In this document: one piece after another, positions 28,564-44,337 of the stretch
How positions within the stretch are numbered: the first letter of the stretch is position 1
How the letters are laid out: every line of letters begins with the position of its first letter
NCBI RefSeq assembly: GCF_002214485.1
Contig: NZ_CP015102.1
Location: forward strand, 558,001-622,000
DNA length: 64,000 nucleotides
DNA from: Thermococcus pacificus
GTDB taxonomy: Archaea; Methanobacteriota_B; Thermococci; Thermococcales; Thermococcaceae
Direction of reading: 5' to 3'
Translations under genes and position numbers: made by a program
Notes under the pieces: generated by a model
Told to the model about the DNA's origin: nothing
Seen by the model: the letters and a program-made list of their open reading frames with translations, nothing else
Database searches by the model: none

Positions 28564-28609
28564 AAAAAACTTTTTATTTTTGCACTTCTTTTGTCAATCA
28601 GGTGATAGC

Positions 28610-30247
28610 GTGAGCGAGCTCAAGACTGTGGTGTGTCCCTACTGCGGCTTTGGCTGTAAGCTGCTCATAGACCCAAAAACCCTGAAGGTAAAACCCCACC
28701 GCGGCGAGCCAAACAGGGGAAAGCTCTGCCCGAAAGGTCTCTACGCGACCGAGATAGTTGCCTCAAAGGACAGGCTCAAGAGGCCCCTTAAGAGAGTCGG
28801 CTCGGCGATGGTTCCGATAAGCTGGGGCAAGGCGGTTGAGGAGATAGCGAATAAACTTCTCGAAATCCGCGAGCTCTACGGCCCGGATGCGGTCGCTTTC
28901 ATAGCTTCATCGAAGGTAAGCAACGAGGAGAACTACCTCCTCCAGAAGATAGCGCGCCTCTTTGGAACAAACAACATTGACAACTGTGCTCGCTTATGCC
29001 ACGAAGCTTCGGTTCACGCCCTTAAGCTGGCCGTAGGGACCGGTGCTCAAACCAACCCCTACGAAGACCTTGAGGGCTTCAACGCGATACTCATCTGGGG
29101 CTACAACCCGGCCGAGACTCACCCGGTTGTCATGGACTACATCCTGAAGGCAAAGCGGAAAGGGGCGAAGATAATCGTCGTTGACGTGAGGGAAACGAGG
29201 ACGATGGCCTTCGCTGATTATAAGCTCGTGATAAGGTCCGGAACCGACATAACCCTCGCCAACGCCATGATGCACGTGATAATCCGCGAGGAGCTCTACG
29301 ATGAGGACTTCGTCCGTTCGCGGACGAGCGGTTTTTCAGAGGTCAAGATGGCGGTGAGGAAGTACACGCCCGAGTACGCTGAGAGAATAACCGGAATTCC
29401 GACGGGGACCATAAGGGAAGTTGCGAGGGCCTTCGCATTATCTGGAAGCGGTGCTATCATGTGGGGGATGGGTCTTACACAGCACGTCTCGGGCGTGGAA
29501 AACGTTTTGGCCGTTATAGACCTCGCCCTACTGCTCGGCTACATAGGCGAGCGCGGCGGCCTCTACCCGATGCGCGGCCAGAACAACGTGCAGGGAGCGG
29601 CTTACATGGGCGCTCTCAGCGAGTTCCTGCCCGGTTACGTTCCTCTAACGGACGAGCGCTTCAGGAAGCGCGTCGCATCTCTCTGGGGCGTTGAGGACCT
29701 TCCAACGGAGAGGGGCCTCTACCTGACGGAGCTGTGGGATGAAATAGAGGAAGGCAACGTGAGGGCACTCTACATCGTCGGCGAGAATCCGGCCGTCAGC
29801 GAGGCCGACTTCACCAGAGTCAGAGAAGCCCTTAGAAAGCTCGACCTCCTCGTCGTTCAGGACATCTTCCCAACGAGAACGGCCCGCTATGCCCACTACC
29901 TCCTACCGGCCTCGGCCTTCTGCGAGAAGAGTGGAAGCTACATGAACAGCGAGAGGAGGATCCAGTGGAGCGAGAAGGTTTGTGAACCCTACGCAGACTC
30001 AAAACCCGACTGGGAGATTCTGACGATGCTCGGAAGGGCACTCGGTTTGCCCGGTTTCAACTATTCGAGCGTCGAGGAAGTAACTGCGGAATATTTCAGG
30101 CTCTTTCCAGAGCTTGAGGAGAGGACCGTCGAGGAGCTGAAGAACTCAGACGGAATACTCCTGCCTAAGAAGAGGCTCCACACGTGGGAGTTCGCCACAC
30201 CTGATGGAAAGGCGAGGCTTGTAGCGGTTGAGCAAATATCGCCCTAG
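28610..30247 (+). CDS. fdhA: Formate dehydrogenase alpha subunit-like molybdopterin oxidoreductase, body (stops at in-frame TAG)
   Basis: 545 residues. The N-terminal [4Fe-4S] motif is CPYCGFGC with a fourth Cys in KLCPKG. The catalytic site is in DNCARLCHEASVHALK, with Cys where selenoproteins have Sec, followed by His. Molybdopterin guanine dinucleotide contacts include WGYNPAETHPV, RSGTDITLANAMMH, GMGLTQHVSG and MRGQNNVQGAAYMG. Start GTG 28610 follows GGTGAT. The frame ends at TAG 30245-30247; the C-terminal cofactor-binding domain continues in the same frame in the next entry, so the gene is split by one stop codon. It is related to FdhA of formate metabolism; no partner subunit lies nearby. 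The pur motif and PurT/PurP context suggest it may supply formate. Confidence 0.88.
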   Translation: MSELKTVVCPYCGFGCKLLIDPKTLKVKPHRGEPNRGKLCPKGLYATEIVASKDRLKRPLKRVGSAMVPISWGKAVEEIANKLLEIRELYGPDAVAFIASSKVSNEENYLLQKIARLFGTNNIDNCARLCHEASVHALKLAVGTGAQTNPYEDLEGFNAILIWGYNPAETHPVVMDYILKAKRKGAKIIVVDVRETRTMAFADYKLVIRSGTDITLANAMMHVIIREELYDEDFVRSRTSGFSEVKMAVRKYTPEYAERITGIPTGTIREVARAFALSGSGAIMWGMGLTQHVSGVENVLAVIDLALLLGYIGERGGLYPMRGQNNVQGAAYMGALSEFLPGYVPLTDERFRKRVASLWGVEDLPTERGLYLTELWDEIEEGNVRALYIVGENPAVSEADFTRVREALRKLDLLVVQDIFPTRTARYAHYLLPASAFCEKSGSYMNSERRIQWSEKVCEPYADSKPDWEILTMLGRALGLPGFNYSSVEEVTAEYFRLFPELEERTVEELKNSDGILLPKKRLHTWEFATPDGKARLVAVEQISP

Positions 30248-30259
30248 GAGACGCCCGAT

Positions 30260-30604
30260 ATGGAATATCCCTTCGTTCTCACGACGGTGAGGCTGATAAG
30301 CCACTACAACACGGGCGAGATGACGCTTAGGAGCCCCTCACTGGTCAGGCTGATGGGCGAGCCGAAGGCACTGATAAACGAGAAGGACGCGGAGAGGCTC
30401 GGAATCGCCGATGGGGGCTGGGTGGAGATAGAGACGAGGCGCGGAAGGATAAGGATGCGCGCAAAGGTTGGCGGTGTTCCACCGAGAGTTGTTGCGGTCC
30501 CCTTCCACTTCAAGGCCAACAGGCTCACCGGCTCGGCCCTCAACAAGGCGGGAACGCCGGAGTTCAAGTATTCGGCCTGCAGGGTGAGAAAGCTCAAAAC
30601 CTGA
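30260..30604 (+). CDS. Formate dehydrogenase alpha-like, C-terminal molydopterin-dinucleotide-binding domain
   Basis: 114 residues: [50 protein letters not shown] and [20 protein letters not shown]. This is the molydop_binding beta-barrel that normally ends FdhA. Position 30260 is exactly 550 codons from the fdhA start, so both parts share one frame, separated by TAG GAG ACG CCC GAT. In an intact gene the residue at TAG is probably Glu, Gln or Lys. TAGGAG itself forms an SD 9 nt before ATG 30260, so this domain could be made as a separate polypeptide, like FwdD beside FwdB in formylmethanofuran dehydrogenase. It overlaps purF (opposite strand) by 11 nt. Confidence 0.85.
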
Positions 30605-34081: not shown

Positions 34082-34098
34082 TACTTGAGGTGGTGCCC

Positions 34099-35367
34099 AT
34101 GATAAAGCCCCGCGACGAACTCGGAACCGCCATGACTGACTCAGCTCAGAAGATACTCCTCCTCGGGAGCGGCGAACTGGGGAAGGAGATAGCCATCGAG
34201 GCCCAGCGTCTCGGCGTTGAGGTGATAGCCGTTGACCGCTACGCCAACGCTCCGGCGATGCAGATTGCCCACAGGGCCTACGTTGGCGACATGAAGAACG
34301 CCGATTTCCTCTTCTCGGTCGTCGAGAGGGAGAAGCCGGACGCGATAATTCCTGAGATCGAGGCGATAAACCTCGATGCCCTCTTTGAGCTTGAGAAGGA
34401 CGGCTACTTCGTCGTCCCGAACGCAAAAGCGACCTGGATAGCGATGCACCGCGAGAGGCTCAGGGAAACACTGGTAAAGGAAGCGAAAGTCCCAACCTCG
34501 CGCTATGCATATGCCACAACGCTCGACGAGCTCTACGATGTCTGCGAGAAGATAGGCTACCCCTGCCACACAAAGGCCATAATGAGCTCCTCCGGAAAGG
34601 GCTCCTACTTTGTGAAGGGTCCGGAAGACATCCCCAAAGCCTGGGAAGAGGCGAAGAAGAAAGCCCGCGGCAGCGCCGACAAGATAATAGTCGAGGAGCA
34701 CATCGAGTTTGACGTCGAGATAACCGAGCTAGCTGTGAGGCACTACGACGAGAACGGCGATATCGTTACTACCTTCCCGAAACCCGTCGGCCATTACCAG
34801 ATCGACGGCGACTACCACGCGAGCTGGCAGCCGGCGGAGATAAGCGAGAGGGCGGAACGCGAGGTTTACAGGATAGCGAAGCGCATCACCGATGTCCTCG
34901 GCGGTCTCGGACTCTTCGGCGTTGAGATGTTCGTGAAGGGCGATAAGGTCTGGGCCAACGAGGTTTCTCCAAGGCCCCACGACACCGGGATGGTAACCCT
35001 TGCTTCTCATCCCACGGGTTTTTCAGAGTTCGGGCTCCACCTAAGGGCGGTCCTTGGGCTTCCAATTCCGGGAGAGTGGGTCGACGGCTACAGGCTCTTC
35101 CCAATGCTCACACCGGCGGCAACCCACGTCATAAAGGCCAGTGTCAGTGGTTACTCCCCGCGCTTCCGCGGTCTCGCCAAAGCTCTAAGCGTTCCCAATG
35201 CCACGATAAGGCTCTTCGGAAAGCCTGAGGCCTACCCCGGAAGGAGGCTCGGCGTTGCGATAGCTTGGGACAAGAGTGTGAGTGATGCAAAGAAAAGGGC
35301 GGAGATGGTGGCGCACGCAGTAGAGCTGAGAACCAGGACATCCACTTGGCAGAGGCAGGACGTTTAA
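34099..35367 (+). CDS. purT: Formate-dependent phosphoribosylglycinamide formyltransferase
   Basis: 422 residues, ATP-grasp. It has ILLLGSGELGKEIAIEAQRLG, VIAVDRYANAPAMQ, PEIEAINLDALFELE, MSSSGKGSYFVKGPEDI (ATP loop), VEEHIEFDVEITEL, WANEVSPRPHDTGMVT and EFGLHLRAVLGLPIP. It forms formyl phosphate from formate and ATP and formylates GAR to FGAR, without folate. ATG 34099 lies after GGTGGTG (34088-34094). Use of PurT in place of PurN explains the need for formate in this pathway. Confidence 0.96.
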   Translation: MIKPRDELGTAMTDSAQKILLLGSGELGKEIAIEAQRLGVEVIAVDRYANAPAMQIAHRAYVGDMKNADFLFSVVEREKPDAIIPEIEAINLDALFELEKDGYFVVPNAKATWIAMHRERLRETLVKEAKVPTSRYAYATTLDELYDVCEKIGYPCHTKAIMSSSGKGSYFVKGPEDIPKAWEEAKKKARGSADKIIVEEHIEFDVEITELAVRHYDENGDIVTTFPKPVGHYQIDGDYHASWQPAEISERAEREVYRIAKRITDVLGGLGLFGVEMFVKGDKVWANEVSPRPHDTGMVTLASHPTGFSEFGLHLRAVLGLPIPGEWVDGYRLFPMLTPAATHVIKASVSGYSPRFRGLAKALSVPNATIRLFGKPEAYPGRRLGVAIAWDKSVSDAKKRAEMVAHAVELRTRTSTWQRQDV

Positions 35368-36228: not shown

Positions 36229-37545
36229 ATGAAAATCCTGCTCGTTGGTGGCGGTGGAAGGGAGAACGCAATAGGAGAGGCACTGGTGGGGAGCGGGGCT
36301 GAGCTCTACGTGGTCTCGAAGCACAGAAACCCGGGCCTTGCGAGGCTTGCCAAAGGCTATGGTTTAGCCAAGGAAACGGACGTGGGGAAGGTTCTCGTTT
36401 ATGCCGAGAAGTTCGGCGTTGAGGTGGCCTTCATCGGCCCGGAGGCGCCGCTTGGGACGGGCATCGTTGATATCCTTGAGGAGAACGGTATTCCCGCGGT
36501 TGGTCCGAGCAAGGAGGCCGCAAAACTAGAAACGGACAAGGCCTTCGCCAGGCAATTCATGGAAAGGCACAAAATCCCGGGAAGGAAAGCCTTCAAAGTC
36601 TTCGACGATGTTTCCGAGATGCGCTCGTGGATAGACGATTTTGGAAAGCCCGTCGTTGTGAAACCCCTCGGTCTCACAGGCGGCAAGGGAGTTAAAGTCG
36701 TCGGCTACCAGCTGAGGGACAACGACGAAGCCAAGGCCTACGCGGAGGAGCTGATAAAGCGCGACGGGAAGGTTCTGGTAGAGGAGAGGACGGACGGCGT
36801 TGAGTTCACGTTCCAGGTATTCAGCGACGGGAAGCACGTCATTCCTATGCCGCTCGCACAGGACTACCCCCACGCTTACGAGAACGACGAGGGGCCGATA
36901 ACAGGAGGTATGGGTAGCTACTCCTGCTCAAACGGTCTCCTGCCCTTCGTGACGAAGGAGGACTACGAGAGGGCCTTTGAAACGCTCAAGGCGACAATCG
37001 AGGCGATGAGAAAGGAGGGAACTCCCTACAAAGGCATTCTCTATGGCCAGTTCATGCTGAGCAAAGACGGACCAGTTATCATAGAGTACAACGCCCGCTT
37101 TGGCGATCCGGAGGCGATGAACGTCCTCCCGCTTTTGAAGACACCGCTGACGGAGGTAGCTGAGGGCATAGTGGACGGAAACCTGAGGAAAGCGGAGTTC
37201 GAGGAGAAAGCAACGGTCGTGAAGTATCTGGCCCCAAAGGGCTACCCGGTGAACCCAATCAGGGGCGTTAATGTCGAGGTTGATGAGAGGGCCGTAGAAG
37301 AGGCCGGCGCGAGGCTCTACTACGCTTCCATAGACGAGAACTTCAAGCTCCTCGGTTCAAGAGCGATAGCTGTCGTTGGAATAGCGGAGACGCTCGAAGA
37401 GGCCGAGAGGATTGCCGAAAGCGCGGTTCCGCACATCAAGGGCGAGCTGTTCTACCGGAGGGACGTTGGGACGAGGGGGAGCGTGGAGAAGAGGATTCGC
37501 CTGATGAGGGAGCTTGGAAAGGAGTTCGAGCCGAATTCCTGCTGA
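36229..37545 (+). CDS. purD: Phosphoribosylamine-glycine ligase
   Basis: 438 residues, ATP-grasp GAR synthetase. It has ILLVGGGGRENAIGEAL, FIGPEAPLGTGIVDILEENGIP, VGPSKEAAKLETDKAFARQFM, VVKPLGLTGGKGVKV, ITGGMGSYSCSNGLLPF and the metal-site EYNARFGDPEAMNVLPLL. It ligates PRA and glycine. ATG 36229 follows GGTGAATCTC; the ATG at 36217 overlaps the SD. First gene of the purD to guaAA run, with small gaps or overlaps up to purP. Confidence 0.96.
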   Translation: MKILLVGGGGRENAIGEALVGSGAELYVVSKHRNPGLARLAKGYGLAKETDVGKVLVYAEKFGVEVAFIGPEAPLGTGIVDILEENGIPAVGPSKEAAKLETDKAFARQFMERHKIPGRKAFKVFDDVSEMRSWIDDFGKPVVVKPLGLTGGKGVKVVGYQLRDNDEAKAYAEELIKRDGKVLVEERTDGVEFTFQVFSDGKHVIPMPLAQDYPHAYENDEGPITGGMGSYSCSNGLLPFVTKEDYERAFETLKATIEAMRKEGTPYKGILYGQFMLSKDGPVIIEYNARFGDPEAMNVLPLLKTPLTEVAEGIVDGNLRKAEFEEKATVVKYLAPKGYPVNPIRGVNVEVDERAVEEAGARLYYASIDENFKLLGSRAIAVVGIAETLEEAERIAESAVPHIKGELFYRRDVGTRGSVEKRIRLMRELGKEFEPNSC

Positions 37546-37555
37546 GGTGGTTGGA

Positions 37556-38698
37556 ATGATAAGCCGCGACGAGATTTTGGGAGTCCTTGAGAAATACGAC
37601 CCAGAGAGGATAACCGTCGGAGTGATTGGGAGCCACTCGGCCCTCGACATAGCCGACGGTGCTAAGGAAGAGGGCCTTCCCGTCCTTGTTGTGGCCCAGC
37701 GCGGGAGGCACAGGACCTACGCAGAATACTTTAAGCTCAGAAAGACGAGGGACGGCCTGACCAAGGGCTTCATAGACGAGGTCATTGTCCTCGACAAGTT
37801 CGCCCAGATCATTGACGTCCAGGACGAACTCATCAAAAGGAACGTTATCTTCGTCCCAAACCGCTCCTTCGTGGTTTACACTGGCATTGACAGGGTTGAG
37901 AACGACTTCCGCGTTCCCCTCTTCGGGAGCAGGAATTTGCTCCGGAGCGAGGAGAGGAGCGAGGAAAAGAGCTACTACTGGCTCCTTGAGAAGGCTAGCC
38001 TTCCTTATCCCGAGGAAGTAAAGCCGGAAGAAATAGACGACGTCGGCCTCGTCATCGTCAAGCTCCCGCACGCCAAGAAGAGGCTTGAGCGCGGCTTTTT
38101 CACGGCGGCATCGTACAAGGAGTTCCGCGAGAAGGCCGAGCGGTTGAAGAAGCTCGGCGTCATCACAGAGGAGGACTTAGCCAGAGCCAGAATCGAGCGC
38201 TACATAATCGGCCCGGTCTTCAACTTCGACTTCTTCTACTCGCCGATTGACGGGAAGATTGAGCTCCTGGGCATAGACTGGCGCTTTGAGACGAGCCTTG
38301 ACGGTCACGTGAGGCTTCCAGCGAGCCAGCAGCTCACGCTCCCCGAGCACCAGTTCGAGCCCGAATACACGGTCTGCGGGCACGCAAGCTCTACTTTGAG
38401 GGAGTCGCTTTTGGAGAAGGTCTTCGACATGGCCGAACGCTACGTCAAGGCGACGCAGGAGTACTATCCGCCGGGGATAATCGGGCCGTTTACGCTCCAG
38501 ACGGCCGTGGACAAGGACCTCAACTTCTACATCTACGATGTAGCTCCAAGAACGGGCGGTGGAACGAACATTCACATGGCCATGGGCCATCCGTATGGAA
38601 ACGCCCTCTGGAGGATGCCGATGAGCACCGGTAGGAGGGTGGCGCTTGAGATAAAGCGCGCGATTGAGCTGGATGAGCTTGAGAAGGTGGTCACGTGA
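37556..38698 (+). CDS. PurP paralogue (formate-phosphoribosylaminoimidazolecarboxamide ligase family)
   Basis: 380 residues. The same fold and order as PurP: TVGVIGSHSALDIADGAKEEG, VAQRGRHRTYAEYF, IFVPNRSFVVYTGIDRVE, then a C-terminal ATP-grasp with IIGPVFNFDFFYSPIDGKIELLGID, GIIGPFTLQTAVDKDLNFYI, YDVAPRTGGGTN and SMSTGRR-like PMSTGRRVALEIKRA. The basic [14 protein letters not shown] loop of true PurP is here reduced (IVKLPHAKKRLERGFF), so the substrate or activity may differ. The bona fide PurP is encoded four genes later. Start ATG 37556 after GAGGTGGTTGGA. Position in the operon implies a purine role. Confidence 0.85.
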   Translation: MISRDEILGVLEKYDPERITVGVIGSHSALDIADGAKEEGLPVLVVAQRGRHRTYAEYFKLRKTRDGLTKGFIDEVIVLDKFAQIIDVQDELIKRNVIFVPNRSFVVYTGIDRVENDFRVPLFGSRNLLRSEERSEEKSYYWLLEKASLPYPEEVKPEEIDDVGLVIVKLPHAKKRLERGFFTAASYKEFREKAERLKKLGVITEEDLARARIERYIIGPVFNFDFFYSPIDGKIELLGIDWRFETSLDGHVRLPASQQLTLPEHQFEPEYTVCGHASSTLRESLLEKVFDMAERYVKATQEYYPPGIIGPFTLQTAVDKDLNFYIYDVAPRTGGGTNIHMAMGHPYGNALWRMPMSTGRRVALEIKRAIELDELEKVVT

Positions 38699-39629: not shown

Positions 39630-42766
<3,137 letters not shown>

Positions 42767-42790
42767 ATTTGCTAAAACTCACAAGGATAG

Positions 42791-42800
42791 GTTTATATAT
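42791..42800 (+). promoter_or_regulatory. TATA box of the guaA genes
   Basis: GTTTATATAT lies 35-44 nt before the guaAB start. TTGACTCCCAAATG follows at 42799; it resembles a pur motif with an insertion but does not align without gaps, so I do not count it. Confidence 0.6.
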
Positions 42801-42834
42801 TGACTCCCAAATGCTCGCAAAAAAGGTGGTGCTT

Positions 42835-43758
42835 ATGTGGGAGAAGTTCATTGAGGAGAAGGTTGAGGAGATAAGGAAGACCGTCGGTGATGGAAAGGCT
42901 ATAATAGCGCTCTCCGGTGGTGTGGACAGCTCGACGGCCGCGGTTCTTGCCCACAGAGCAATAGGCGATAGACTCCACGCGGTCTTCGTCAATACAGGCT
43001 TTATGCGCAAGGGTGAACCTGAGTTCGTCGTTAAGACCTTCCGCGACGAGTTCGGCCTTAACCTGCACTACGTTGACGCTAGCGAGCGCTTTTTCAGTGA
43101 GCTTAAGGGCGTAACCGACCCGGAGGAGAAGAGGAAAATAATCGGCAGGGTCTTCATCGAGGTCTTCGAGGAGGTTGCGAAGGAGATAGATGCTCAATTC
43201 CTTATCCAGGGCACCATCGCCCCAGACTGGATTGAGAGCAAGGGAAAGATCAAGAGCCACCACAACGTGGGCGGCCTTCCAGAGAGGCTCAACCTGAAGC
43301 TCATCGAACCGCTGAGGGACCTCTACAAGGACGAAGTGAGGGAGCTTGCCAAGGAGCTTGGCCTTCCCGAGAAGATATACAACCGTATGCCCTTCCCCGG
43401 GCCGGGGCTGGCAGTGAGAGTCCTCGGAGAGGTAACGCCGGAAAAAGTCGCCATCGTGAGGGAAGCGAACGCCATAGTCGAGGAGGAGATTGAGAGGGCC
43501 GGGCTGAAGCCCTGGCAGGCCTTCGCGGTTCTTCTCGGCGTTAAAACCGTCGGAGTTCAGGGCGACATTAGGGCTTACAAAGAAACCATCGCCGTCCGCG
43601 TCGTTGAGAGCCTCGACGGCATGACGGCCAATGCAATGAACGTCCCCTTCGAGGTGCTCCAGAGGATAGCCTTCAGGATAACGAGTGAGATTCCAGAGGT
43701 CGGGAGGGTGCTCTACGACGTCACCAACAAGCCTCCTGCCACAATAGAGTTCGAGTGA
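42835..43758 (+). CDS. guaAB: GMP synthase ATP-pyrophosphatase subunit
   Basis: 307 residues. The N-type ATP pyrophosphatase loop is [80 protein letters not shown] and the C-terminal dimerisation part ending [11 protein letters not shown] complete the usual GuaA half. It adenylates XMP, and ammonia from the glutaminase subunit makes GMP. ATG 42835 follows GGTGGTGCTT; the frame from 42763 runs through the promoter. Confidence 0.96.
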
Positions 43759-43767
43759 GGTGGGAGC

Positions 43768-44337
43768 ATGATAATCATAATGGACAACGGCGGGCAATAC
43801 GTTCACAGGATTTGGAGGACGCTCCGCTATTTGGGGGTAGAGGCGAAAATTATCCCAAACACCACCCCGCTTGAGGAGATAAAGGCGATGAGGCCAAAGG
43901 GCATAATCTTCTCGGGCGGTCCCGATATAAACAAGATCAGCAACTGTGAGGCAATCCTGGAGCACTACGACGAGTTCAACGTGCCTATCCTCGGCATATG
44001 CCTCGGCCACCAGCTGATAGCGAAGCACTTCGGCGGGAAGGTCGGAAGGGGCGATAAGGCGGAGTACAGTTTAGTTGAGATCGAAATTCTTGAGGAGAAC
44101 GACATTTTCAAGGGCCTCCCTAGAAAGTTAAAAGTATGGGAGAGCCACATGGACGAGGTAAAGGAGCTTCCCCCGGGCTTCAAACTGCTCGCCAGGAGTG
44201 AAACCTGCCCGGTCGAGGCGATGAAGCACGAAAGCCTTCCAATCTACGGTGTGCAGTTCCATCCCGAGGTGGCCCACACCGAGCGTGGTGTGGATATATA
44301 CCGGAACTTCGCGGAGCTCTGCGGGGAGCTCAGCTAG
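43768..44337 (+). CDS. guaAA: GMP synthase glutamine amidotransferase subunit
   Basis: 189 residues. [29 protein letters not shown], nucleophile [33 protein letters not shown] and the catalytic His/Glu in [13 protein letters not shown]. It feeds ammonia to the pyrophosphatase subunit; archaea keep these as separate proteins. It starts 9 nt after guaAB. The spacer to the next gene (44338-44489) holds pyrimidine-rich repeats of TCATC but no gene. Confidence 0.96.

Follow-up and report, generated by a model that had tools for sequence, protein, structure and literature searches.

The stand-alone Group 5 type fdhA gene of Thermococcus pacificus is interrupted by a single in-frame TAG codon, and it is confirmed that this break is real in the assembly and restricted to one lineage. 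Documented below are the break, its occurrence in this genome alone, and halves that are both intact and under constraint. The split gene is a lineage-private variant and not an established two-subunit family. Synthesis of FdhA as two chains is the best single explanation, and we judge it evenly balanced between right and wrong.

The stop codon and its restriction to one lineage

Positions 30236-30265 of the window, i.e., the whole stretch of 64,000 nucleotides at 558001-622000 of the genome that was analysed, read ATA TCG CCC TAG GAG ACG CCC GAT ATG GAA, followed by TAT. The reading frame is the same on both sides of the TAG (30245-30247), and it remains open past this codon, via ATG 30260, to position 30604 (Table 1). 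A sequence-only reading of this DNA had claimed that the TAG and the ATG share one frame without a frameshift, and that TAGGAG doubles as a Shine-Dalgarno (SD) motif 9 nt ahead of the ATG. The former matches the window exactly, and the GGAG at 30247-30250 has the correct spacing. One G-to-A change (TGG to TAG, W546) suffices to make the stop and, the TAG apart, neither piece contains further stops or gaps. Both pieces score well over the domain cut-offs (Pfam, NCBIfam), and chain 1 keeps C9, C12, C16, C40, K42, C130, H131, and R322, all in invariant columns.

Table 1. Features of the split fdhA gene and of the formate-consuming genes nearby (window coordinates)
Feature	Position	Strand	Basis
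GGTGA Shine-Dalgarno motif of fdhA, 4 nt ahead of GTG	28601..28605	+	Read from sequence
fdhA chain 1, 545 aa, GTG start, Fe4S4 and Molybdopterin oxidoreductase domains	28610..30247	+	Pfam, NCBIfam, invariant columns
In-frame TAG for TGG (W546), Trp conserved in 47/47 orthologues	30245..30247	+	Orthologue comparison
GGAG, SD-like, 9-nt spacer to ATG 30260	30247..30250	+	Sequence; consensus GGDGRD (PMC5316973)
Candidate chain 2, 114 aa, Molydop_binding domain, private ATG (residue 551)	30260..30604	+	Pfam PF01568, E=8e-24
purT, formate-dependent GAR formyltransferase (consumes formate)	34090..35367	+	TIGR01142, 628 bits
purP family, formate-dependent FAICAR synthetase (consumes formate)	37514..38698	+	PF06849, E=4e-42

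Among 48 aligned distinct orthologues, the 47 others all carry Trp in the column of the stop, encoded by TGG wherever codons were seen. The nearest orthologues are 82-93% identical and uninterrupted without exception. The stop at the W546 site is unique to T. pacificus among 94 Thermococcaceae genomes, all other Group-5-type fdhA genes of the family running on through this site, and no internal stop in FdhA was found in the 91 genomes with FdhA matches of the 151-genome methanogen phylum. Only 8 of the 664 residues of the T. pacificus protein are private to it; the stop (546) and M551 are among these, and the column of M551 is occupied elsewhere by E, Y, G, K, or S.

Recurrence of the split in several species had been put forward as support for two subunits, and this test came out negative in both sets of genomes. 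The sequence-only reading had also named what would overturn it, i.e., orthologues that are all uninterrupted together with loss of function in this strain. Of these two, the uninterrupted orthologues are an observation, whereas loss of function in T. pacificus is only a possibility. Thus, the choice it posed, between a mutation or error and a protein made as two chains, is upheld in part: the split occurs in no second species, but the two-chain reading stays alive because of the constraint on both pieces, the private ATG with its SD motif at the domain boundary, and the fact that no other FdhA found in the genome carries the catalytic residues.

Two further fdhA genes with disruptions were encountered. 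Another Thermococcaceae genome (L141, G100:C3:302500-306200) has an unrelated private nonsense codon, TAA for CAA (Q75*), at about residue 75 of fdhA, and a metagenome-assembled genome (L042) with a near-identical gene (24 differences in 1974 nt) carries CAA and is uninterrupted. Hence, fdhA does acquire private nonsense codons, or is affected by errors, and this case gives an idea of the base rate. In another genome (L145, G033:C1:197271-199300), a further FdhA paralogue of about 47-51% identity is spread over two frames, and stops were reported where these meet; this is likely a frameshifted gene.

Selective constraint and the putative restart site

Constraint was assessed by codon likelihood over six taxa, and single sites were polarised by an outgroup. 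On the T. pacificus branch, omega of chain 1 was 0.044 against a background of 0.056. For the C-terminal piece, the branch omega was nominally raised (2dlnL 5.4), an unstable estimate with few changes in this piece. Polarised replacement and silent changes numbered 3 and 3 in the C-terminal piece and 9 and 25 in chain 1, a difference that is not significant (Fisher p 0.34). Two conserved residues are altered in the C-terminal piece (D603G and G626R), which, together with the raised omega, gives a hint of slackening. A neutral final part of the branch could amount to at most about 2.5% for chain 1 and at most about 22% for the C-terminal piece (best estimate 5%); full constraint would then have lasted for about 97% or more and about 78% or more, respectively, of the branch after divergence from the nearest relative. 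As both pieces are constrained and without decay, either the stop arose very recently or it does no harm, the enzyme still functioning as two chains. A very recent null mutation agrees with the constraint data just as well as a functional split does, and these data do not separate the two.

The position of the break is more informative. In an AlphaFold model of the read-through protein, which is of medium quality (pLDDT 69) and was used only for the position of coil and strands, the break falls in a coil of residues 541-554, and the first strand of the C-terminal domain begins at residue 555. The sequence GGAGAC at the stop fits the SD consensus of T. onnurineus, GGDGRD (PMC5316973), in five of six positions, and GGAG motifs with spacers of about 10 nt are also found ahead of the pdxT, nadC, and guaA genes in the window. 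Such a motif on its own is weak evidence for a restart, since an SD-like motif is present by chance at 27 of the 145 internal ATGs in the genes of the window, and since 5 of the 99 TGG codons in these genes, if changed to TAG, would be followed 2-8 codons downstream by an in-frame ATG with such a motif. The evidence that counts is its coincidence with the domain linker and the private Met. The stop and the ATG are 12 nt apart; for comparison, Haloferax gene pairs 13 or 14 nt apart retain 40-60% reinitiation, which is abolished at about 22 nt (PMC10666635). A conserved RNA structure was not detected at the junction, where folding was no better than in shuffled sequences (z +1.2).

The purine neighbourhood and formate metabolism

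The split gene is flanked by pdxT on one side and by a purine cluster on the other, with genes on mixed strands. The cluster contains purF, purC, purM, purT, purE, purD, purP, purQ, purL, a second purP-like gene, and guaA; except for purT and purP, these names are based on a reading of the translations. The candidate C-terminal open reading frame and the convergent purF share 11 nt at their 3' ends (window 30594-30604). GMP synthetase (guaA) is present as two adjacent genes, read from their translations as an ATP-pyrophosphatase and a glutamine amidotransferase (window 42763-44337), and two-gene layouts are common in this region. The two-gene form of guaA is an ordinary split in archaea. Apart from fdhA, all orthologous genes compared at 20.8-44.3 kb of the window are intact.

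Holden and Sistu (2023) described solo fdhA genes in the vicinity of purine genes, proposed that these provide the formate for PurT and PurP, and stated the function and the redox partner of the solo genes to be unknown (PMC10025317). Among near-complete genomes, a Group-5 fdhA was present in 58 of 69 with purT and in none of five without it (Fisher p=3e-4, ignoring phylogeny). Neither a pyruvate-formate lyase (PFL) nor a formate transporter was found in the T. pacificus genome. Purine synthesis does not necessarily depend on formate dehydrogenase, since a double fdhA mutant of Methanococcus maripaludis grew without purines (cited in PMC10025317).

A second FdhA-like gene of the genome, of the "Group 3" type, is located in the fhl operon beside soluble hydrogenase genes (L148:4891-6762; G000:C1:1156890-1158762). 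Its product has Ser for the catalytic Cys, and the Arg is missing from its place. Ser for the catalytic Cys/Sec (LSQ or LSH for LCH) was found in this subunit in five genomes (L148, L170-L173), and the active-site Arg was absent at its position in all four genomes where the region was read. Judging from these residues, the fhl-operon subunit may be something other than a formate dehydrogenase. The catalytic Cys-His and Arg were found in no FdhA of the genome other than the product of the split fdhA. The split gene thus offers a clean handle on the orphan Group 5 FdhA of Thermococci and on whether this enzyme works and feeds formate to purine synthesis.

Explanations for the split and comparison with known systems

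If FdhA is made as two chains, a single G-to-A substitution would have converted the invariant Trp546 codon, in the flexible linker of a stand-alone Group 5 type fdhA, into TAG. The GGAG overlapping the stop would let ribosomes halted at the TAG, or newly initiating ones, start at ATG 30260, and the chains of 545 and 114 aa would assemble, like FwdB and FwdD, into one W/Mo-bisMGD enzyme, a candidate formate dehydrogenase that may supply formate to PurT and PurP of the adjoining cluster. Against two chains stand the sub-optimal reinitiation distance of 12 nt, the occurrence of the split in no second species, and the hint of slackening in the C-terminal piece. The position in the linker and the private ATG with its SD motif are the facts that discriminate between readings of the stop. 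Alternatively, fdhA is a null allele after a recent nonsense mutation that arose in nature or during culture. The ATG and SD motif close by would then be coincidental, and formate or purines would reach the strain from rich medium or from other reactions that release formate. We regard this loss of function as less likely than not, though not far behind the two-chain reading: every other genome is uninterrupted at the W546 site, Q75* in the other genome illustrates that such events happen in fdhA, the data are compatible with an age of the stop below about 2.5% of the branch, the C-terminal piece may have slackened, and internal ATGs preceded by an SD-like motif are not rare (27/145). However, chance would have had to place the stop in a linker of about 14 of the 664 residues, just before a private ATG with an SD motif. 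Moreover, neither part of the gene has a further lesion, the purine cluster that would need the formate is intact, and no other disruption was seen among the orthologous genes compared.

A sequencing or assembly error, with G as the true base, is improbable, even though this one base brings back the invariant Trp. The difference is a substitution in non-homopolymer sequence of a single-contig assembly (1,785,673 bp), the compared part of the window shows no other disruption, and an error leaves the private ATG with its SD motif five codons on unexplained. Furthermore, the genome of T. pacificus P-4 was sequenced by deep Illumina and IonTorrent sequencing (PMC5823998), which also argues against an error if the present genome is that of P-4. 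Very improbable is a single chain produced by readthrough or recoding of the TAG by pyrrolysine or a suppressor tRNA. In its favour, an open and conserved frame flanks the TAG, but the relatives all have Trp at this position, which is not a catalytic site. Pyrrolysine was rejected, as no pyrrolysyl-tRNA synthetase (PylS) was found in the genome whilst the Methanosarcina control was positive, and a scan of the 64-kb window detected no tRNA with a CUA anticodon. Should the two chains both be synthesised and active, they would represent a very young gene fission, with a one-substitution break, a private restart codon, and intermediate steps that are readable in the sequence. If fdhA is dead, the strain would be a natural knockout for the role of Group 5 FdhA in purine synthesis.

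The known system closest to the split gene is the Group 5 stand-alone FdhA of Thermococci (PMC10025317; TIGR01591), with which it shares the orthologues of 82-93% identity, the adjacent purine genes, and the catalytic residues. The compared orthologues are uncut at this site, each forming a single chain of about 660-680 aa, whereas the T. pacificus chain is cut at W546. Owing to its Fhl-type gene, the genome is not "fdhA only" in the strict sense. Read through the TAG, the protein scores 875.7 bits against TIGR01591 (Fdh-alpha; cut-off 666.25), and chain 1 alone scores 762.8. The Fe4S4 cysteines, the Lys, the catalytic Cys/Sec-His, and the Arg of this family are all present, but the dinucleotide-binding domain, which belongs on the same chain, is separated from them by the TAG. 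The FdhF proteins of Escherichia coli (formate dehydrogenase H) and of HDCR are full-length homologues with solved structures and the same domain order. They are single uninterrupted chains; E. coli FdhF has selenocysteine at a TGA codon, whereas T. pacificus FdhA has Cys130 instead and its stop is located elsewhere.

The tungsten formylmethanofuran dehydrogenase FwdB/FwdD, to which the split had been likened, also has a DMSO-reductase-type body and a C-terminal dinucleotide-binding barrel on separate chains. The likeness holds for structure and for the position of the break: FwdD and the C-terminal piece begin at the same structural place, with an hhalign offset of about four residues, and a fold search with the model of this piece retrieved C-terminal domains of formate dehydrogenases first and then the FwdD chains 5t5i_D and 5t61_D. 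It does not extend to family membership, as the piece scored 20.2 bits against a cut-off of 175 for FwdD (NF042908). No Fwd partners were noticed in the surroundings examined. The FwdB/FwdD split is old and family-wide, with separate gene histories, whereas that of T. pacificus consists of one in-frame stop in one lineage. It is possible, though we place this just short of an even balance, that a functional fission of the catalytic subunit occurred in this lineage by nonsense substitution and gain of a start codon, re-creating the FwdB/FwdD layout independently. If so, the fission sits at the boundary where evolution split the FwdB/FwdD enzymes.
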